DNA from: Leifsonia shinshuensis
Lineage (GTDB): Bacteria; Actinomycetota; Actinomycetes; Actinomycetales; Microbacteriaceae
Assembly: GCF_014217625.1 (NCBI RefSeq)
Contig: NZ_CP043641.1
Coordinates: 4,278,001-4,342,000, forward strand
DNA: 64,000 nt
Reading direction: 5' to 3'
Shown here: one piece after another, positions 42,559 through 51,857 of the stretch
How positions within the stretch are numbered: position 1 is the first letter of the stretch
How the letters are laid out: the number at the start of each line of letters is the position of its first letter
Position numbers and translations under genes: made by a program
Notes under the pieces: model-generated
What the model saw: the letters and a program-made list of their open reading frames with translations, nothing else
Database searches by the model: none
What the model was told of the DNA's origin: nothing

Positions 42559-42605
42559 TTGACGTGAAAGAAACGAACGCGCACAATCTGAAACATGTCT
42601 TTCAC
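42559..42605 (+). promoter_or_regulatory. Promoter of the ArsR-MFS operon with overlapping inverted repeat
   Basis: -35 TTGACG (42559-42564), 17 bp, -10 CACAAT (42582-42587); the start would fall at the ATG (42595), giving a leaderless mRNA. GTGAAAGA (42564-42571) and TCTTTCAC (42598-42605) form an inverted repeat that covers the promoter and start codon and may bind the ArsR-type product. Confidence 0.6.
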
Positions 42606-43242
42606 ATCGGACGATCGACCTGCAGGAGGCCGCCACGAGGACCGCAGGACGGTCACCGACCCGCGCGCGCTCCGGGCGCTCGCCCATCCGCTCCGGCTCG
42701 CGCTGCTCGACCACCTGATGTCATTCGGCGCGAGCACCGCCAGCGACTGCGCGGAGGCGGTCGGCTCGACGCCCTCCAACTGCAGCTACCACCTGCGCGC
42801 CCTGGCGAAGTTCGGGCTGGTGGAGCGGGTGGAGGCCGAGGACGGCCGCGAGCGCCCCTGGCAGTCCACGGCCACCGGGCTCACCCTCGGCCGCACCGAG
42901 GACCCGGCGATGCAGTTCGGGGTCGACACGGTCGAGCGGTTCTTCGCCGACCATCAGATCGACGAGGACGCCGCCCGGCTGCACCGCTCGATCGCACAGC
43001 GCGACAGCGTGCCGGAGGAGTGGCGGGAGGCCAGCATCCTCTCCGGCTACGCGCTGCGGATCGCGCCGGACGAGCTCCGCGAGCTGGGGGAGCGGCTGGA
43101 CGCGCTCATCCGCCCCTACATCGCGCTCACCCGCTCCGACGCCCCGGACGACAGCGCTGTTGTCGTGCTGGGCCTGAACGCCTTCCGGCACCCGGATGAG
43201 AAAAACGCCGCTGAGAAGAACGCTGAGAAGAACCCATCATGA
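42595..43242 (+). CDS. ArsR/winged-helix transcriptional regulator
   Basis: 215 residues. An ArsR-type winged helix (ALAHPLRLALLDHLMSFG, A-S-D-C-A-E-A-V-G-S-T-P-S-N-C-S-Y-H-L-R-A-L) is followed by a long helical C-terminal region that lacks the usual metal-binding ELCVCDL site, so it probably senses something else. It ends in a Lys/Asn-rich stretch. The stop overlaps the next MFS start (ATGA), so it is translationally coupled with that transporter. Likely autoregulator. Confidence 0.9.
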   Translation: MSFTSDDRPAGGRHEDRRTVTDPRALRALAHPLRLALLDHLMSFGASTASDCAEAVGSTPSNCSYHLRALAKFGLVERVEAEDGRERPWQSTATGLTLGRTEDPAMQFGVDTVERFFADHQIDEDAARLHRSIAQRDSVPEEWREASILSGYALRIAPDELRELGERLDALIRPYIALTRSDAPDDSAVVVLGLNAFRHPDEKNAAEKNAEKNPS

Positions 43243-44510
43243 CCCGCTCACCTCTCTTCCGCCGCGACTACGGCCTGATCTGGTCGGCCGGCCTCGTCTC
43301 CGACACCGGGGACTGGCTGCTGATGATCGCCCTCCCGCTGTTCGCGTTCTCGGCGACCGGCTCCGCGCTCGGCGCCTCGACCGTGTTCCTCGCCGAGCTC
43401 ATCCCGATGCTGCTCGCCGGCACCTTCCTCGGCGTGCTGGTCGACCGCTGGGATCCGCGGCGCACGATGATCGTCACCGCGCTGATCCAGGGCGTCGCCC
43501 TGCTGCCGCTGCTGGCCGCCGGCCCCGACCGGATGGGCATCGTCTACGCGGTCGCCGCGGTGCAGGCCTGCCTCGGCGCCGTGATGAACCCGGCTCGCCA
43601 GTCGACGGTGCCGCGGCTGCTGAAGCCGGACGAGCTCGGCCGCGGCAACGCGCTGCTCGCGATCAGCGACAACCTCGCCCGACTGGTCGGCTCGCCGCTC
43701 GGCGGTCTCGCGTTCGCGGTGTCCGGCCTCCCGGGCGTCGTGATCGTGGACGCCGTGTCGTTCGGCGTGACCGCCGTCCTGGTCCTCTTCACCCGTCCGC
43801 TGCCGCCGCGCGTGCACGAGCCGGGGGAGGAGTCCGCGCCCGCAGTCGAGCGCCGGCTGCTGCGGGAGTGGGTGGAGGGCATGGCAACGATCGTGCGCAG
43901 CAGGGAGCTGGCGACCGTCACGGTCATCGCCATCATCGGCAGCGTCGCGCAGGGCGTCTTCCTCGTCCTCTTCATCGTCTACGTCACCGAGAACCTGCAC
44001 GCCGGGGACACGGAGGTCGGCATCCTGCGCGGCGTCCAGGCCATCGGCGGCGTGCTCGGCGGCCTCCTCACCGGGCTGATCGTGCACCGGGTCGCGCCGC
44101 GCTGGCTGATCGGCGTCGGCTACCTCGTGTTCGGCGCGCTCTCGCTGCTGACCTGGAACCTGGCCCCGGTCACGACGGCCGTCTGGGTCTACGCCGGCCT
44201 GTTCATCGCGATGGGCCTGCCCGGGGTCGCGACCGAGACGGGCGAGATCACGCTCGTGCAGACGGTCACGCCGCGCGCGGCGCTCGGGAGGGTGATCGCC
44301 GCGGTGCGGACGATCTCCGGCGCGGCCCAGGGCGTCGGCCTCCTGGTCGCCGGTCTCATCGCGGCGTCGGTCGGGACGGTCCATGTGCTGGACGCGCAGG
44401 CCTCCCTCTATCTGCTGTGCGGGGTGCTCGCCCTGGTGTTCCTCGGCGGCGGGCGCACGACGCGGGAGACCGTGCCAGAACCGGCCGCCTCCGCCGCGAC
44501 GCCCTCCTGA
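43239..44510 (+). CDS. MFS transporter (Bcr/TetA-like, 12 helices)
   Basis: 423 residues with about 12 hydrophobic helices. Motif A is V-D-R-W-D-P-R-R-T, and P-A-R-Q-S-T-V-P-R-L fits the enterobactin-exporter/MFS_3 group of actinobacterial drug exporters. ATGA overlap with the regulator gene. A probable efflux protein with unknown substrate; the N-terminal Asp near D-T-G-D-W and the G-S-P-L-G-G motif are conserved. Codon usage is native. Confidence 0.88.
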   Translation: MTRSPLFRRDYGLIWSAGLVSDTGDWLLMIALPLFAFSATGSALGASTVFLAELIPMLLAGTFLGVLVDRWDPRRTMIVTALIQGVALLPLLAAGPDRMGIVYAVAAVQACLGAVMNPARQSTVPRLLKPDELGRGNALLAISDNLARLVGSPLGGLAFAVSGLPGVVIVDAVSFGVTAVLVLFTRPLPPRVHEPGEESAPAVERRLLREWVEGMATIVRSRELATVTVIAIIGSVAQGVFLVLFIVYVTENLHAGDTEVGILRGVQAIGGVLGGLLTGLIVHRVAPRWLIGVGYLVFGALSLLTWNLAPVTTAVWVYAGLFIAMGLPGVATETGEITLVQTVTPRAALGRVIAAVRTISGAAQGVGLLVAGLIAASVGTVHVLDAQASLYLLCGVLALVFLGGGRTTRETVPEPAASAATPS

Positions 44511-44577
44511 GTCGCGACTTGACGCGAAACCCGGCCGATTGCCAGAGGTTTCGCGGATCGGCACGTAGGGTGTCGGT

Positions 44578-47500
44578 GTGTGGCGACTGGATAGGAAGAG
44601 CGAGGACGACGACGACATGACGTCCGACGTGCCCGAAGGGGACGCCCTGCGCCCGGCCGCCAACACCACCTCCCCGCACACCCTCAGCCTCGGCGAGGCC
44701 GGTCTCGTGGCCGGCAACATCGCCGACCACGTCTGGGCGAAGTGGCGCGAGGAGATCGCGGCGATCGGCGGCGACTCGCCGCTGCTGCACTTCGAGGACA
44801 GCCCGCGCACTCGCATCGAGCTGAGCACGACGCATCCCGGCGGCCTCCCGCAGTTCATCACCGGACAGAGCACGCTGCTCTCCAGCCTGATCCGCGACGA
44901 GCTCGCCCTGCGCACGGCGCGGGCCGCGGCCAACGCGATCACCGCGAAGGGGATCGAGCTGCGCTCGGTGCGCGGCATCGAATCCGTGCACCTCGCGATC
45001 GGTCTCGCCCAATGGCGGCACGGCACCGACGAGTTCATGGCGCCGATCCTGCTGCGCCCGATGGCGATCCGCCGCTACGGCCGGGACTTCGAACTGAAGC
45101 TCAAGGGCCAGCCGTTCCTCAACCCGGAGCTGTCCAAGGCACTGGCCGAGCAGTTCCAGATCACGCTCGACGCGAGCGCGTTCGTGGCGCTCGCCCTCGA
45201 CAACGGCGCGTTCAAGCCGCAGCCGGTGATCGACCGGCTGCGCGGGCTCACCTCGCACCTGCCCTGGTTCAACGTCCAGCCGCGCCTGGTGGTGTCGTCG
45301 TTCGTCGACGTCGCGCCGGCGCTGCGCGCCGAGGCCGACGACCTGGACACCACGCTCCTGGACGCCCTGGCCGGCAACCCGACCGCGCGCACCACCATCG
45401 AGAGCGCCTTCAGCCCGGCGCAGCCCGTCCGCCAGGACGAGCGGCCGCCGGCGACCGACTCCCTCCTGCTCGACGCCGACGAGGCGCAGGAGAACGTGGT
45501 CGCGCAGATCGCCGCGGGCAACTCCCTCGTCGTCAAGACCCTCCCCGGCACCGGCGGCACCCAGACGGTCGTCAACGCGGTCGGCGCGCTGGTCGCGCAG
45601 CACAAGCGCGTCCTGGTCGTCGGTCCGCGGCGCTCCAGCCTGGAGGACATCGCCCAGCGCTTCACGAAGGTCGGCCTGCCCGGCCTCGCCGTGACGCCCC
45701 GCAGCCTGCGCCGCGACCTCATCCAGTCGATCGGCCGCAACGAGAAGGCCGAGCAGCCGCGCGTCACCGACGTGGACGACGCCCTGGTGCGCCTCCGCAA
45801 GGTGCTGCTGGACTACCGCGCCGCGCTCGCCCGCCGCGACCCCGTGCTGCACGTCTCCGTGCTCGACGCGCTCCGCGAGCTGTCCCGGCTCGCGCTGCTG
45901 CCGTCGCCGCCCTCCACCACCGCGCGCCTGAGCAGGGCCTCCATCGAGATGCTCGCCTCCGGGCGCGACGCCTCGGCGGACGCGCTCATCCGGGCCGCGC
46001 GCCTCGGCGAGTTCCGCTACGGCCCCAACGACTCGCCCTGGTACGGCGCCTCGTTCGGCACCACCGAGGAGGGCAAGGCCGCCCACGACCTCGCCAAGAA
46101 GCTCAGCCGCGCCGAGCTGCCCCGCCTGCTCGACCGCGCCAAGGCTCTGATCGGGCAGACCCGGATGCGGCCGTTCGAGTCGATCGCCGAGCTCGGCGTC
46201 TACCTGCGGCTGCTGCTCGACGTCCGGGAGACGCTGGACCGCTTCACGCCGGCCGTGTTCGACCGCTCGATCGCCGAGCTGATCGCCGCCACCTCCTCGC
46301 GCCGCGAGTCGCCCGCGATGTCGGGTGCGAACCGCCGCCGGCTGCGCAAGCTCGCCCTGGAGTACGTGCGCCCAGGCGTGCACGTCACCGACCTCAATGA
46401 GGCGCTGCGCCGAATCCAGCAGCAGCGCATCCTCTGGAACCGGTTCGCCGTCGCCGGCGTCGTGCCAGAGGTGCCGGTCGGTATCGCGGACGTGCAGGTC
46501 GCCTACCAGCGCGTCGCGGAGGACCTGGCCCGTCTCGACATCCCGCTGCGCCGGGTCGGCACCCCCCAGTCGCTCGCCGCCCTCCCGGTCGAGGAGCTGA
46601 CCCGTCAGGTCGCCGGCCTCGCCGCCGAGTCCGAAGTGCTCGCCAACCTGCAGGAACGCACCGCGCTGCTCGGCCAGCTGCGCGACCGCGGGCTGGACCC
46701 ACTGCTGTCCGACCTGTCCGTCCGCCACGTGCCGGAGTCGCAGGTCAGCGCCGAGCTCGAGCTGGCCTGGTGGCAGTCGGTGCTGGAGGCGCTGCTGTCC
46801 TCCGATCGTGCCCTCCTCAGCGGCAACACCAGCGTGCTGGACCGGCTGGAGGCCGACTTCCGCCTGGTCGACGAGGCGCACGCCTCCGCTACGGGCAAGC
46901 AGCTCGCCTGGATGCTCGCCGAGACCTGGAAGATCGGCATCGTGGACTGGCCAGAGGAGGCCAAGGCCCTCAAGAAGCTGCTGACGACCAGCGCGCCCAC
47001 CGCCGCGACGCTCAACGCCGCGGCCCCGCACCTCGCGCGCCCGCTCGCACCGGTCTGGCTGGTGTCGCCGTACGAGGTCCCCGCCATCGACGCGGAGGTC
47101 GCCTTCGACACGGTCGTGCTCATCGACGCCGGAGCCTCCAGCCTCGCCGAGAACGTCCCCGTGCTGCGCCGGGCGCGCCAGGTGGTCGCGTTCGGCGACC
47201 CGGTGACCCAGACCCCGTCGCACTTCGACGTGGGCGTGCACGAGTACGGCACGACGGTGGAGGCCGCGGACGTGGACTCCCTGCACGCCGACTCCGCCTT
47301 GTCGCGGCTCTCCGAGCTGCTGCCGGTCTACACGCTGGCGCGCAGCTACCGGGCCGGTGGCGAAGACCTCGCCGAGCTGGTCAACCGCCGCTTCTACGGC
47401 GGCAACATCGACTCCCTGCCGTGGGCCGGCACTTACCTCGGGCACGGCAGCCTCGCCCTCCACTACGTCACAGGCGGCCAGGGCATGCCCGACACCGACA

Positions 47501-48342
47501 CCGGCGCCGTGGAGAGCACCGACGCCGAGGTGGCGAAGGTCGTGGAGCTCGTGCTGCGGCACGCGACCGAGCGTCCGCGCGAATCGCTCATGGTCATCAC
47601 CGCGAGCGAACGTCACGCCGTCCGCGTCAACCAGGCGGTGCTGTCCGCGTTCGCCAAGCGCACCGAGCTGGCCGACTTCATCCTGGGCGACCGGCCGGAG
47701 CCGTTCTCGGTGGTGACGCTGGAGCAGTCCGTCGGCCAGAGCCGCGACCGCGTGGTCTTCTCGATCGGCTACGGCCGGACCCCGCACGGGCGCCTGCTCT
47801 CCAACTTCGGCGCCCTCGCCGAGCCGGGCGGCGACCGCCTGCTCGCCGTCGGCATGACCCGCGCCCGCCGCGGCATGGACATCGTCTCCTGCTTCCGCCC
47901 GGACGACATCGACGACTCCCGGATGCGCCACGGCATCGCCGCGCTCGCGCAGGTGCTGGGGGAGGCCGACCAGCTCCAGGCCGCCGCGCCCGAGTACCTG
48001 AGCCCGGACGCCGACCCGATGGTCGTGGACCTCGGCAAGCGCCTGGCGCGCCGCGGGCTGGACGTGCAGATCGGCTACCGCGGCAAGCTGACGCTGGTGG
48101 CGTCGAACGCCGGCCGCGCCGTCGTGGTCGAGACGGACGAGGACGTGAACCGCGGCAGCCTCCGCGAGTCCCTGCGCTTGCGCCCGGACGTGCTGCGCCG
48201 CCTCGGCTGGCACTACCTCCGCGTCCACAGCTTCGAGCTGTTCGCCGACCCGGACGCCGTCGCCTCCCGCATCGCCCGCCTCATCGGCGTCAACGACGAG
48301 GCGAGCACCGAAACCGCGCCGATCACGCTGCCGCAGCTCTGA
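44578..48342 (+). CDS. DUF4011/SF1-helicase-like protein with degenerate ATPase motifs
   Basis: 1254 residues. N-terminus (~30-260) resembles DUF4011 (LLHFEDSPRTRIEL, VHLAIGLAQWRHG, LNPELSKALAEQF). The SF1 helicase region begins at ~300, but motif I reads LPGTGGTQT with Gly327 where the ATP-binding Lys should be, and motif II reads LIDAGAS (D850-A851) where D-E is expected. Motif IV (L-A-R-S-Y-R), N-R-R-F-Y-G-G, the motif V region T-L-E-Q-S-V-G-Q-S-R-D-R-V-V-F-S and motif VI T-R-A-R-R-G are retained. The C-terminus (~1135-1240) looks like a restriction-endonuclease-type fold with few acidic residues kept. Intact relatives include anti-phage DUF4011-helicase-nuclease proteins. This one should not hydrolyse ATP in the usual way. 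The GTG start has TAGGGT 6 nt upstream. Confidence 0.82.
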   Translation: MWRLDRKSEDDDDMTSDVPEGDALRPAANTTSPHTLSLGEAGLVAGNIADHVWAKWREEIAAIGGDSPLLHFEDSPRTRIELSTTHPGGLPQFITGQSTLLSSLIRDELALRTARAAANAITAKGIELRSVRGIESVHLAIGLAQWRHGTDEFMAPILLRPMAIRRYGRDFELKLKGQPFLNPELSKALAEQFQITLDASAFVALALDNGAFKPQPVIDRLRGLTSHLPWFNVQPRLVVSSFVDVAPALRAEADDLDTTLLDALAGNPTARTTIESAFSPAQPVRQDERPPATDSLLLDADEAQENVVAQIAAGNSLVVKTLPGTGGTQTVVNAVGALVAQHKRVLVVGPRRSSLEDIAQRFTKVGLPGLAVTPRSLRRDLIQSIGRNEKAEQPRVTDVDDALVRLRKVLLDYRAALARRDPVLHVSVLDALRELSRLALLPSPPSTTARLSRASIEMLASGRDASADALIRAARLGEFRYGPNDSPWYGASFGTTEEGKAAHDLAKKLSRAELPRLLDRAKALIGQTRMRPFESIAELGVYLRLLLDVRETLDRFTPAVFDRSIAELIAATSSRRESPAMSGANRRRLRKLALEYVRPGVHVTDLNEALRRIQQQRILWNRFAVAGVVPEVPVGIADVQVAYQRVAEDLARLDIPLRRVGTPQSLAALPVEELTRQVAGLAAESEVLANLQERTALLGQLRDRGLDPLLSDLSVRHVPESQVSAELELAWWQSVLEALLSSDRALLSGNTSVLDRLEADFRLVDEAHASATGKQLAWMLAETWKIGIVDWPEEAKALKKLLTTSAPTAATLNAAAPHLARPLAPVWLVSPYEVPAIDAEVAFDTVVLIDAGASSLAENVPVLRRARQVVAFGDPVTQTPSHFDVGVHEYGTTVEAADVDSLHADSALSRLSELLPVYTLARSYRAGGEDLAELVNRRFYGGNIDSLPWAGTYLGHGSLALHYVTGGQGMPDTDTGAVESTDAEVAKVVELVLRHATERPRESLMVITASERHAVRVNQAVLSAFAKRTELADFILGDRPEPFSVVTLEQSVGQSRDRVVFSIGYGRTPHGRLLSNFGALAEPGGDRLLAVGMTRARRGMDIVSCFRPDDIDDSRMRHGIAALAQVLGEADQLQAAAPEYLSPDADPMVVDLGKRLARRGLDVQIGYRGKLTLVASNAGRAVVVETDEDVNRGSLRESLRLRPDVLRRLGWHYLRVHSFELFADPDAVASRIARLIGVNDEASTETAPITLPQL

Positions 48343-48346
48343 CTCC

Positions 48347-48471
48347 CGACATTCGTGCCGAATGTCGCCTTTGGCGCGCTCATTCACGACAATCGTGCTG
48401 AATGTGCGCCTCGCACATTCGTGACGAATGTCGCGAATGGCGTCGATACGCGACATTCGGCACGAATGTGA
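48347..48471. repeat. Four copies of a 21-bp palindrome downstream of the helicase-like gene
   Basis: CGACATTCGTGCCGAATGTCG (48347-48367, 9-bp arms), a degenerate copy at 48387-48407, a copy at 48413-48433, and an inverted copy at 48451-48471 that shares 20 of its bases. Spacing is 40, 26 and 38 bp between starts. No known repeat family is recognised. They lie 2 bp after the stop codon of the helicase-like gene and end 42 bp before the next small gene. Confidence 0.75.
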
Positions 48472-48512
48472 GGGTGGCTAGCGCTCGGGATGCGCGCGGT
48501 TACGCTGGAGGG

Positions 48513-48683
48513 GTGACCCAGAAACCCGACGCCGAACGCCCCGCGCGGAAGTCTCGCCGCGTGCAGCGCGCCGGCGCGCCGGGCGCCGACCCCACGCCGC
48601 GCGTCCCCGAGCGGGACCGCGAGGAGGGCTCCTGGTCGCCGAACGACGAGCAGCTGCGGCGGGACGTGCCGCCGCACTACTGA
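48513..48683 (+). CDS. Small basic hypothetical protein
   Basis: 56 residues, Arg/Pro/Glu-rich, ends D-V-P-P-H-Y. No family recognised. The GTG follows TACGCT ending exactly 6 nt upstream; the GGAGGG immediately before it is too close to act as a ribosome-binding site. Similar small proteins occur near mscL in Microbacteriaceae, so I consider it likely real. It converges with mscL, 9 bp apart. Confidence 0.6.
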   Translation: MTQKPDAERPARKSRRVQRAGAPGADPTPRVPERDREEGSWSPNDEQLRRDVPPHY

Positions 48684-48692
48684 GCGGACGCG

Positions 48693-49133
48693 CTACGGCA
48701 GCGGGTCGGCGTGCCGGCCGGCGTTCGCGGAGGGCGGCGCCTGCTGGGCCTGCAGGAGGTCGCGGATCTCGCTGAGGAGGTCCAGCTCGGTGACCGGGGC
48801 GTCCGGCTCCACGACGCCCTTCTTGCGGAGGCGGTCCATCCGCTCCTTGAGCTTGTTGATCGGGAACACGAAGACGAAGTAGACCACAACGGCGACGATC
48901 AGGAAGTTGATGATCGAGCCGAGGACCGCGCCGAACTTGATCTCGGCGCCGTTGAGGGGCACGATCATCGCCTTGTCGAGCGAGCTCGCCTTGAAGAACG
49001 CGCTGATCAGCGGGTTGAAGAGGTTGGTCACGATCGAGGTGACCACGGCGGTGAACGCGGCGCCGATGACAACCGCGACCGCCAGGTCGATCACGTTCCC
49101 ACGGAGGATGAACTCTCTGAAGCCTTTGAGCAT
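48693..49133 (-). CDS. mscL: Large-conductance mechanosensitive channel
   Basis: 146 residues. Start of MscL is unmistakable: F-R-E-F-I-L-R-G-N-V-I-D-L-A-V-A-V-V-I-G at residues 5-24 (first helix, pore), with F-T-A-V-V-T-S-I-V-T-N following. TM2 is about 75-100, followed by the cytoplasmic helix bundle (ELDLLSEIRDLLQ). It opens under osmotic down-shock. AAAGGA before the ATG. It belongs to a minus-strand run with FmdB-like and 5-FTHF cyclo-ligase genes. Confidence 0.95.
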   Translation of the reverse strand: MLKGFREFILRGNVIDLAVAVVIGAAFTAVVTSIVTNLFNPLISAFFKASSLDKAMIVPLNGAEIKFGAVLGSIINFLIVAVVVYFVFVFPINKLKERMDRLRKKGVVEPDAPVTELDLLSEIRDLLQAQQAPPSANAGRHADPLP

Positions 49134-49545: not shown

Positions 49546-50130
49546 CTAGCTGAACTGGACGATGCGGGTCGGGGTGACCGCGCCGTCGACCGGCTGATCG
49601 TGCCGCTCGCGCGGAACCTCGTCCACGAGCTCGCCGTCGAACACGACGGCGTACACCGGAGGACATTTTTCCATGCTGCCGAGCGTCTTGTCGAAATAGC
49701 CGCGGCCCCAGCCCATCCGCATCCCGCTCGCGTCGACGGCGGCGGCCGGCACCAGGATGAGGTCGACGTCGTTGATCGCGATCGGGCCGAGCAGCTCGCC
49801 GACGGCCTCCGGCATCCCGAACAGGCCCTCGGTCTCGGTCTCGCCGTCGCCCGTGGTCCAGTCCAGGAGGCCGTCCTCGCGGGACACCGGCAGCAGCACC
49901 CGCAGTCCCTGGGCGACGGCCCAGTTGACGAAGTCGCGCGTGTCCGGCTCGATCGTCGTGGAGAGATAGCAGGCCACGGAACGCGCCGAGAGGTCGGTCG
50001 TCAGGTCGACCAAGTTCCGGGTGATTCCGGCTGCCGCGGCCTGTCGTTCGGTGCTCGTGAGGTTCTGCCGGCGCTCGCGCAGCTCGGCGCGCAGGGCGCG
50101 CTTGCGATGGGCTGCTGTGTCGGTCTCCAT
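49546..50130 (-). CDS. 5-formyltetrahydrofolate cyclo-ligase
   Basis: 194 residues. The ATP/substrate-binding stretch is G-W-G-R-G-Y-F-D-K-T-L, with the folate site near L-L-P-V-S-R-E-D-G-L-L-D-W and V-D-L-I-L-V-P-A-A-A-V-D. It recycles 5-formyl-THF to 5,10-methenyl-THF with ATP. Cytoplasmic. It is divergent from galU, as in other Microbacteriaceae. Confidence 0.92.
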   Translation of the reverse strand: METDTAAHRKRALRAELRERRQNLTSTERQAAAAGITRNLVDLTTDLSARSVACYLSTTIEPDTRDFVNWAVAQGLRVLLPVSREDGLLDWTTGDGETETEGLFGMPEAVGELLGPIAINDVDLILVPAAAVDASGMRMGWGRGYFDKTLGSMEKCPPVYAVVFDGELVDEVPRERHDQPVDGAVTPTRIVQFS

Positions 50131-50189
50131 AGCGCAATCCTAGAAGATGACCCCGGGAGACCGGTCGAAATGCGGATAGTGTGCTCGGT

Positions 50190-51152
50190 ATGGCTACTCA
50201 CGTGACGAAAGCAGTGATCCCCGCAGCAGGCCTCGGCACCCGGTTCCTCCCGGCGACCAAGGCGATGCCGAAAGAGATGCTGCCGGTCGTCGACAAGCCG
50301 GCCATCCAGTACGTGGTCGAGGAGGCCGTGGCAGCGGGCCTGCACGACGTCCTGATGGTGACCGGGCGCAACAAGAACGCGCTCGAGAACCACTTCGACC
50401 GCAACGCCGAGCTGGAGGACACGCTGGAGAAGAAGGGCGACACCGACCGGCTCCAGAAGGTCAACTACTCGACCTCGCTCGCCGACCTCCACTACGTCCG
50501 CCAGGGCGACCCGAAGGGCCTCGGCCACGCGGTGCTGCGCGCCAAGATGCACGTGGGCCGCGAGCCGTTCGCCGTGCTCCTCGGCGACGACATCATCGAC
50601 TCCCGCGACGACCTGCTGCAGCACATGCTGGAGGTCCAGCAGAACTACAACGCCACCGTCGTCGCGCTGATGGAGGTGCCGAGCGAGTCCATCCACCTGT
50701 ACGGCGCCGCGGCGATCGAGGAGACCGGCGACGACGACGTGGTGCGCATCACCGGCCTCGTCGAGAAGCCGGACGCCGACAAGGCGCCCTCGAACTACGC
50801 GATCATCGGCCGCTACGTGCTGCGCCCGGAGGTCTTCGACGTGCTCGAGCGCACCAAGCCCGGCCGCGGAGGCGAGATCCAGCTCACCGACGCCCTCCAG
50901 GCGATGGCCGAGGCGCCGGACTGGACCGGCGGCGTGTACGGCGTCGTGTTCCGCGGCCGCCGCTACGACACCGGCGACCGGCTCGACTACATCAAGGCGA
51001 TCGTGCAGCTCGCCGTCGACCGCGAAGACCTCGGCCCGGAGCTGCGGCCGTGGCTCAAGGAGTTCGCCGACGGCCTGCACGACGAGCCGCGCGAGATCCT
51101 GGACGAGATGCCGATCGACGCGGCTGACGCGTCGGAGGACGTTAACCGCTAG
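50190..51152 (+). CDS. galU: UTP-glucose-1-phosphate uridylyltransferase
   Basis: 320 residues. The nucleotidyltransferase signature G-L-G-T-R-F-L-P-A-T-K-A-M-P-K-E-M-L-P lies at residues 13-31, and V-E-K-P and G-R-Y-V-L are typical of GalU. It makes UDP-glucose for cell-envelope polysaccharide and glycolipids. The ATG has TAGTGT ending 7 nt before it and no Shine-Dalgarno. An ORF start 9 bp upstream (50181) is not preferred. Confidence 0.95.
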   Translation: MATHVTKAVIPAAGLGTRFLPATKAMPKEMLPVVDKPAIQYVVEEAVAAGLHDVLMVTGRNKNALENHFDRNAELEDTLEKKGDTDRLQKVNYSTSLADLHYVRQGDPKGLGHAVLRAKMHVGREPFAVLLGDDIIDSRDDLLQHMLEVQQNYNATVVALMEVPSESIHLYGAAAIEETGDDDVVRITGLVEKPDADKAPSNYAIIGRYVLRPEVFDVLERTKPGRGGEIQLTDALQAMAEAPDWTGGVYGVVFRGRRYDTGDRLDYIKAIVQLAVDREDLGPELRPWLKEFADGLHDEPREILDEMPIDAADASEDVNR

Positions 51153-51194: not shown

Positions 51195-51857
51195 GTGGCG
51201 TTCGTCATCCCCACGCTGAGCGAGGGACGCATCGGACTGCGACCGATCCGCCTTCGGGACGCGCGCGCCCTCGAGCGCTCCCTGCTCGACAACCGGTCGT
51301 GGCTGCGGCAGTGGGAGGCCACCAGCCCCTACGCGCCCGGCGCGTTCGACACGCGCGCGAGCATCCGCTCCCTCCTGGCGAACGCCCGCGCGGGGCACGG
51401 CCTCCCGTTCGTCGTGGAGTACGACGGCCGGCTGGCCGGCCAGCTCAACGTGTCCTCGGTGACCTACGGCTCGCTCTCCAGTGCCACGATCGGCTACTGG
51501 ATCGCGGAGGAGTTCGCCGGCCGCAACATCACGCCGACGGCCGTGGCGCTGGCGACGGACTACTGCTTCTACCAGCTCGGCCTGCACCGCATGGAGATCT
51601 GCATCCGCCCGGAGAACGCCCCGAGCCTCCGCGTGGTCGAGAAGCTCGGCTTCCGCTACGAGGGGCTGCGCAGGCGCTACATCCACATCAACGGCGACTG
51701 GCGCGACCACTACTGCTTCGGCCTGGTGTCCGAGGAGCTGCAGCAGGGTGTGCTGCGGCGCTGGATGGACGGCGAGGCGCCCCAGGAGGCCGCCGCGGTG
51801 ACGGCGGAGGACCGCGCGGCCGCGGCCATCCCGCTGCCGGTGGCCCGGCGGCACTGA
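51195..51857 (+). CDS. GNAT acetyltransferase, RimJ-type
   Basis: 220 residues. The acetyl-CoA site is G-Y-W-I-A-E-E-F-A-G-R-N-I-T-P-T-A-V-A-L and the C-terminal R-I-R-P-E-N-A-P-S-L-R-V-V-E-K-L-G-F fits RimJ/RimL-type protein N-acetyltransferases. The GTG start at 51195 follows AAGGAGGAC. Its position behind galU is conserved in actinobacteria. It probably acetylates a ribosomal or other protein N-terminus, but the target is not known. Confidence 0.87.
   Translation: MAFVIPTLSEGRIGLRPIRLRDARALERSLLDNRSWLRQWEATSPYAPGAFDTRASIRSLLANARAGHGLPFVVEYDGRLAGQLNVSSVTYGSLSSATIGYWIAEEFAGRNITPTAVALATDYCFYQLGLHRMEICIRPENAPSLRVVEKLGFRYEGLRRRYIHINGDWRDHYCFGLVSEELQQGVLRRWMDGEAPQEAAAVTAEDRAAAAIPLPVARRH

Follow-up and report, generated by a model that had tools for sequence, protein, structure and literature searches.

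The window analysed here, a stretch of 64,000 nucleotides from Leifsonia shinshuensis (contig NZ_CP043641.1, positions 4,278,001 to 4,342,000), contains on its forward strand, at 44578..48342, a gene for a 1254-residue pseudohelicase-pseudonuclease. Comparison with relatives suggested that the protein is the ortholog of a helicase-nuclease related to the anti-phage proteins ProA and Hhe, and that it is now probably a non-catalytic core scaffold that binds nucleic acid. The reading frame starts with GTG and is intact, and its third-position GC of 0.97 is native to the host, in agreement with the long, intact frame of native codon use described in the initial annotation of this DNA. The genome (4,608,984 bases) carries one copy only. 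Among the matches listed, the closest named relatives came from Microbacterium sp. X-17 (98%) and Leifsonia shinshuensis (94%) and are annotated as AAA family ATPase. Family and order without further name are Microbacteriaceae and Actinomycetales; other families, loci and genomes are cited by our numbers (f, L and G).

The active sites were compared with those of two sets of proteins, each being the best 120 of a longer list: one nearest to the window protein (near relatives) and one nearest to its ortholog in Angustibacter. The Walker A motif of intact relatives reads PPGTGKSQT. In the window protein it reads LPGTGGTQT (residues 322-330, 45541..45567), with the Lys replaced by Gly327 (45556-45558), exactly as had been claimed. 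The intact Walker B, FDVVVFDEASQ, is represented by FDTVVLIDAGA (residues 843-853, 47104..47136). Here the initial annotation, which had a Glu replaced by Ala851, was off by one: Asp has become Ile849, Glu has become Asp850, and Ala851 is unchanged, corresponding to the Ala of DEAS; the motif is broken nonetheless. The register was taken from the sequence alignment and from the distance between FD and the GD of motif III, not from the comparison of dead and intact profiles. Since this distance is 32 residues without a gap both in the window protein and in the intact relatives shown, the assignment of Ile849, Asp850 and Ala851 is fixed. Gly327 and Asp850-Ala851-Gly852 were invariant in 29 aligned relatives.

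Motif III, GDERQLPP in intact proteins, has degenerated to GDPVTQTP (residues 873-880, 47194..47217), and all 120 near relatives have either this sequence or GDPVTQSP. Motif V, TLEQSVGQSRDR (residues 1047-1058, 47716..47751), is likewise degenerate, the Q1052, G1053 and D1054 of intact relatives being relaxed in the dead set. Motif IV, RSYRAGGEDL (residues 922-931, 47341..47370), keeps Arg925, as do 120 of 120 near relatives, and motif VI, RLLAVGMTRARR (residues 1087-1098, 47836..47871), keeps Arg1095, which is present in 118 of 120 near relatives; seven family members that branch deeply (L077-L083) have Ser or Thr instead. In the nuclease remnant at the C-terminus (residues 1169-1234, 48082..48279) the conserved Asp is gone (GKLTLVA), with Glu1185 and Asp1187 retained; the Glu-x-Asp is kept in 118 of 120 near relatives. 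At position 1172, the conserved Asp that precedes Glu-x-Asp, the frequency of Asp is 0.97 in the intact set, and the commonest residue of the dead set is Ala (0.42). Lys320 was considered as a relocated Walker A Lys and was rejected: it occurs in near relatives, but L063, L067, L069, L070 and L077 have Arg, Glu or Thr in its place. In L070 the P-loop itself is eroded (TPGAQVTQA). Judged from these alignments, the Walker A Lys, the Walker B Asp-Glu and the nuclease Asp have been lost and motifs III and V rewritten, and the protein is predicted neither to hydrolyse ATP nor to cut.

As to the make-up proposed initially (DUF4011, superfamily 1 (SF1) helicase, nuclease), the Pfam matches to DUF4011, AAA_12 and the MTES_1575 nuclease all lie under the Pfam cut-offs, and the nuclease Asp is lost. 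The DUF4011-like region (PF13195; residues 131-188, 44968..45141) scored 19.1 bits against a gathering score of 22.2, and the nuclease remnant (PF18741) 25.3 bits against 38.2. Intact orthologs pass Pfam cut-offs that the dead protein fails. Among the relatives listed, PF13195 is present in the precomputed domain annotation of some family members, and many carry the REase_MTES_1575 (PF18741) annotation. The best-scoring named models were all anti-phage: ProA (NF058533; 283.5 bits, cut-off 1500), Hhe (NF042953; 137.9 bits, cut-off 2000) and, among the PADLOC models, candidate PDC-S37 (292.4 bits) and again Hhe (130.4 bits). ProA and PDC-S37 extend over both the helicase and the nuclease part of the window protein, and Hhe, itself a DUF4011 anti-phage protein, matches the same parts. 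The window protein differs from ProA in its length (the model has 1903 positions, the protein 1254 residues), in its score below the cut-off, in the loss of catalytic residues and in being encoded by a core gene. A search of PDB sequences with the profile of the dead family gave no match at E 0.01, and the window protein by itself gave a weak match to NAM7. The profile of the intact proteins matched IGHMBP2/SMUBP-2 (4b3f) in the stretches of Walker A, Walker B/motif III and motifs V/VI, the last weakly (14.1 bits).

The dead state is general in the family. None of 154 distinct family sequences collected from the loci had the Walker A Lys (127 had Gly, the rest A, V, L, S, I, T, R or Y) and none had the Walker B Asp-Glu, although 153 of the 154 keep Asp at position 850. 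Similarly, no Lys or Asp-Glu was found in the 120 near relatives, whose Walker A position is Gly in 119 and Ala in one. In the set around the Angustibacter ortholog, by contrast, this position is Lys in 117, Thr in two and a gap in one, and Asp-Glu is present in all 120. At least 80 named family loci (Leifsonia, Cryobacterium, Agromyces, Clavibacter, Curtobacterium, Rathayibacter and others) were all dead, with 74 Gly, 5 Ala and 1 Ser. An ATPase-dead relative of anti-phage proteins, kept without catalysis, had been proposed initially, and this is supported: the dead state held not only for the 154 family sequences but for most of the sampled families of the order. The initial annotation had also reckoned with relatives in which Lys and Glu are present and this copy is a single degenerate case; such relatives do exist, but a single degenerate copy is ruled out by the dead state of all 154 family sequences and of 120 of 120 near relatives.

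Of 299 family genomes 297 have a relative, and so do 267 of the 268 high-quality ones; all 85 genera are represented, and the two genomes without a match are 82 and 94% complete. With an alignment as query, and any match at E <= 0.001 being counted, a relative turned up in 294 of 297 genomes of the order, among them 279 of the 281 high-quality genomes, and in each of the 95 genera. In at least one genome of this tally (G697) the best match is a 2106-residue paralog, and incomplete genomes such as G718 and G832 match only weakly. In a sample of the class 203 of 296 genomes matched. Full-length matches beyond the order, among those listed, were confined to f27, which was taken as Jiangellaceae from the protein names, and to sporadic cases in f14, f25, f34 and f47. 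The gene is retained in genomes of 0.8-0.9 Mb (G015, G716, G828), G015 being a single contig of 927,303 bases. That the gene is plasmid-borne found no support: 340 plasmid records match, all at less than 60% identity and only one with more than 80% coverage. A phage-borne gene found no support either, with one partial phage match. A 415-kb record of Actinomyces oris in the plasmid collection (NZ_CP116225.1:380977-384252) encodes a relative annotated as DNA helicase, with 28% identity over 87% of the query.

Downstream of the gene lies a conserved neighbourhood which identifies the locus. It consists of mscL (48693..49103, reverse strand; PF01741, 101.5 bits), a convergent neighbour that marks the locus by synteny, a gene for 5-formyltetrahydrofolate cyclo-ligase (49546..50130, reverse strand; PF01812, 117.4 bits), a nucleotidyl transferase gene that we take to be galU-like (50181..51152, forward strand; PF00483, 110.1 bits) and a GNAT acetyltransferase gene, presumably rimJ-like (51195..51857, forward strand; PF13302, 77.3 bits). 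One or more of these four lay close by in 70 of the 79 named family loci that could be counted (an 80th was too short, and contig ends account for several of the nine failures), and in 20 of 21 other family loci. The same applied to all loci of f2 (8/8), f8 (7/7), f9 (3/3), f49 (4/4), f50 (2/2), f56 (3/3) and f3, f55 and f59 (1/1 each). In f4, which was taken as Dermatophilaceae because a Nostocoides protein groups inside it, seven of seven intact and four of four dead loci had these neighbours, as did the single locus of Angustibacter (f5). The neighbourhood was found at neither the one locus of f14 nor the four sporadic intact relatives outside the order (0/4). Alignment over the full length together with this neighbourhood defines an order-wide group of positional orthologs. 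For most families, then, dead and intact genes are positional orthologs, with catalysis lost in situ. On the orthology of f7 and part of f6 the locus gives no help.

Orthologs with all catalytic residues were found at this locus in Angustibacter and Dermatophilaceae. Their proteins have the same architecture from end to end (DUF4011, AAA_11-AAA_12, MTES_1575), and dead and intact profiles aligned over 1177 columns (E 3e-146); the difference is that they keep the Lys, the Asp-Glu, GDERQLPP, QGDE in motif V and the nuclease Asp. Lys and Asp-Glu were both present in 7 of 11 sequences of f4 and 2 of 2 of f5. No sequence had the two together in f2 (11 sequences), f3 (1), f6 (4), f7 (4), f8 (7), f9 (3), f49 (4), f50 (2), f54 (1), f55 (1), f56 (3) and f59 (2), nor did any of 25 further loci of the order (L289, L290 and L304 are cut off after Walker B) and 19 further loci of f27. 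Four relatives from outside the order (L104, L105, L124 and L329) are intact. Within f4, intact, partly eroded (L120, L256) and dead motifs coexist at one locus, and a decay series can be drawn up from L120, L256, L255, L274, L123 and L257 against L057, L117, L253, L254 and L258.

A tree of 67 rows, computed with the motif columns removed, required at least five changes of state. Without P0136, which was left out because its Walker A Thr may be a recent loss or an error, the remaining 66 rows required four. The possibility that all 52 dead rows form one clade was rejected (approximately unbiased test, p-AU 7.7e-5 with P0136 left out, 9e-46 with P0136 taken as dead), and so was a grouping of the dead f4 rows with the deep dead rows (p 0.0022). 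One clade with support of 100/99.9 contains 45 of the 52 dead rows. If regain is impossible, the tree suggests one deep loss, which would account for most of the order, and three or more later ones, which would fall in Jiangellaceae/f14 and, at least twice, within Dermatophilaceae. The long branches and the rooting leave this history uncertain.

The gene is under purifying selection. In counting estimates the ratio of nonsynonymous to synonymous substitution rates (dN/dS) between the window gene and the named Leifsonia loci L156-L159 and L086, which belongs to another genus of the family, was 0.083, 0.181, 0.172, 0.161 and 0.186. In the same five comparisons the neighbours gave 0.15-0.27 (nucleotidyl transferase), 0.08-0.19 (ligase), 0.10-0.60 (mscL) and 0.24-0.50 (a major facilitator superfamily (MFS) transporter gene); the gene thus resembles the ligase and the nucleotidyl transferase and stays under the MFS gene. 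A pseudogene is ruled out by the intact frame together with this selection. A comparison of 98 dead with 120 intact sequences, position by position, gave 132 positions at which one and the same residue reaches at least 93% in each set. These shared positions occur in the N-terminal region, in the C-terminal remnant and in the large insert that separates Walker A from Walker B, and the residues of the motor and of cutting have been let go. In the dead set constraint is relaxed at 146 positions that are at least 97% conserved among the intact sequences, including K327, D849, S852, K1046, Q1052, G1053, D1054, D1172 and G1188, and 55 positions have been re-fixed to another residue.

The ancestor would have been a chromosomal helicase-nuclease with a DUF4011 region, an SF1 helicase of the UPF1/IGHMBP2 kind and a C-terminal nuclease of the MTES_1575 type. 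Its enzyme activity would have been lost in place, the gene staying core, and the protein would now work through binding: a scaffold of several domains, it would sit on nucleic acid, most likely DNA, and recruit or exclude other proteins. This role is suggested by the ancestry, by the parts that have been kept and by the precedent of PriA of D. radiodurans. According to the excerpt of PMC4504706, that protein neither hydrolyses ATP nor unwinds, yet still binds DNA, and there is evidence that it binds DnaB. As far as the same excerpt goes, it resembles the window protein in that its Walker A lacks the Lys, its Walker B is no longer a good one and the gene is kept lineage-wide; it differs in belonging to another helicase family and in having evidence for a partner (DnaB), and the window protein has a dead nuclease as well.

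Several observations weigh against a nucleic-acid-binding scaffold. Motifs III and V of SF1 helicases also contact nucleic acid; as both are rewritten here, the classic binding of single-stranded DNA in the groove of the motor has probably changed, and any binding is unlikely to go through the old translocation groove alone. Five of the 55 re-fixed positions are new arginines (463, 563, 587, 694 and 1058), which may be read as a mild hint only of a polyanion ligand. The neighbours are unrelated housekeeping genes, so that no partner gene hints at a pathway. Some dead orthologs lie away from the locus (0 of 4 in f7, 2 of 4 in f6 and 16 of 21 in f27 are at it), and comparison with L160, which is more distant, gave a dN/dS of 0.305. 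A further-reaching account can be offered only tentatively: a helicase-nuclease of the phage-defence type may have been domesticated early in the order as a housekeeping component of the chromosome, with its activities lost at least four times and the role of a DNA-bound scaffold indispensable even in sub-megabase genomes.

Two serious rivals, each of them rather unlikely, are a nucleotide-sensing switch and a non-catalytic role in defence. As a switch, the protein would bind ATP or another nucleotide without hydrolysis and change its shape. Its nearest relatives do keep Gln304, Thr328, the glycines of the P-loop, Arg925 and Arg1095, but Lys and Asp are gone, Arg1095 gives way to Ser or Thr in L077-L083, the P-loop has decayed in L070 and Lys320 is no substitute. 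In the second case the protein would serve a guard-type defence as sensor or decoy. This would fit the anti-phage character of its closest named models, and the intact relatives beyond the order occur sporadically in the class samples and off the mscL locus, as is often so with defence genes. Such a role, for which we see about the same small chance, sits poorly with a gene that is near-universal, occupies one locus in most families, is kept in sub-megabase genomes, has plasmid matches under 60% identity and one partial phage match, and scores below the ProA and Hhe cut-offs.

The remaining explanations are much less probable than these. Catalysis might survive through relocated or unusual residues, with Asp850 as the acidic group and another residue in place of the Lys; the retention of Asp850 in all but one of the family sequences would agree with this, but the Walker A position varies between nine residues (G, A, V, L, S, T, I, R, Y), Lys320 is not conserved, and motif III, motif V and the nuclease site fall together, all of which makes it improbable. 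It is more improbable still that the protein is an antagonist of an intact paralog, a role that had been proposed initially and that found little support. One genome of f2 (G300) does have both a dead ortholog (L050) and a full ProA (L276, G300:C12:58648-64431; 1732 bits, over the cut-off), and the congeneric genomes G936 and G943 have a further frame of 922-934 residues that matches parts of ProA (E 1e-16 to 1e-25). None of the 13 genomes of the genus, however, has a match over the ProA cut-off, the further matches listed in the other 11 are weak (E 1e-6 or worse), and the gene persists where no intact paralog exists. We give just as little credence to a decaying relic on its way to loss: its active sites have degenerated, but purifying selection, near-universal retention, with only 2 of 299 family genomes lacking a match, and conserved upstream columns all speak for maintenance.

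Part of this picture has precedents: pseudohelicases are already known, and so, going by the part of PMC10250203 available, is a core DUF4011 gene that flanks cDHS1 in every P. aeruginosa isolate. The latter is likened to the window gene on one point alone, that a large DUF4011 protein is encoded by a core chromosomal gene. Searches of the open-licence part of PubMed Central, which leaves most subscription papers outside, found no publication that deals with an inactive DUF4011 helicase-nuclease or with this core gene of actinobacteria. Core genes with dead sites are easily overlooked because they are annotated as AAA family ATPase, ATP-binding protein or DEAD/DEAH box helicase, names that mislead for the whole family and most of the order. 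The locus is noteworthy as a natural experiment, in which positional orthologs that are intact, half-eroded and fully dead occur at one place, sometimes within one bacterial family. This decay series lets one ask what the non-enzymatic role of the protein is, and whether an anti-phage machine can become a housekeeping structure.

The start of the gene is of the leaderless type, with a -10 box, TAGGGT (44566..44571), six nucleotides before the GTG. The leaderless promoter of the initial annotation is upheld by relatives, as TAGGGT six bases ahead of GTG-TGG is common to Leifsonia and other genera; a scan of 44400-48700 with plain sigma-70 and terminator consensus sequences, on the other hand, found neither promoter nor terminator. 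Upstream lies an element AAACCC...TTGCC (44527..44543) whose distance to the -10 box hardly varies (about +-1 nt), the gap between TTGCCA and TAGGGT being 21 nt; it is possibly an activator site. A filter requiring a -10 box before an in-frame start was passed by 124 loci, which yielded 103 unique upstream stretches. Among the unselected columns of these, AAACCC near -46 to -41 (A 0.72-0.81, C 0.65-0.78), T-32 (0.83), C-30 (0.72) and G-27 (0.74), numbered from the end of the -10 box, were conserved.

Directly upstream of the gene (42595-44510) is a pair of genes for an ArsR-type regulator and the MFS transporter. Both occur in L086, and the MFS gene also in the Leifsonia loci L156-L159; neither was present in 20 other family loci of 18-20 kb that were compared. 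A scan of 44000-49000 for RNA families found none. The palindrome array reported initially behind the gene is real, but is one cluster of a dispersed repeat, ACATTCGNNNCGAATGT, with 75 perfect copies in the genome (none for the reversed control) that are often clustered. The window has four copies, one of them imperfect, 26-40 bp apart at 48347-48469, and a cluster of seven is found at G000:C1:69579-69851. The perfect core is absent from four of six near-relative loci (L156, L157, L159 and L086); L158 has three copies elsewhere in the locus, and the closest, L002, has one copy just beyond the end of the gene.

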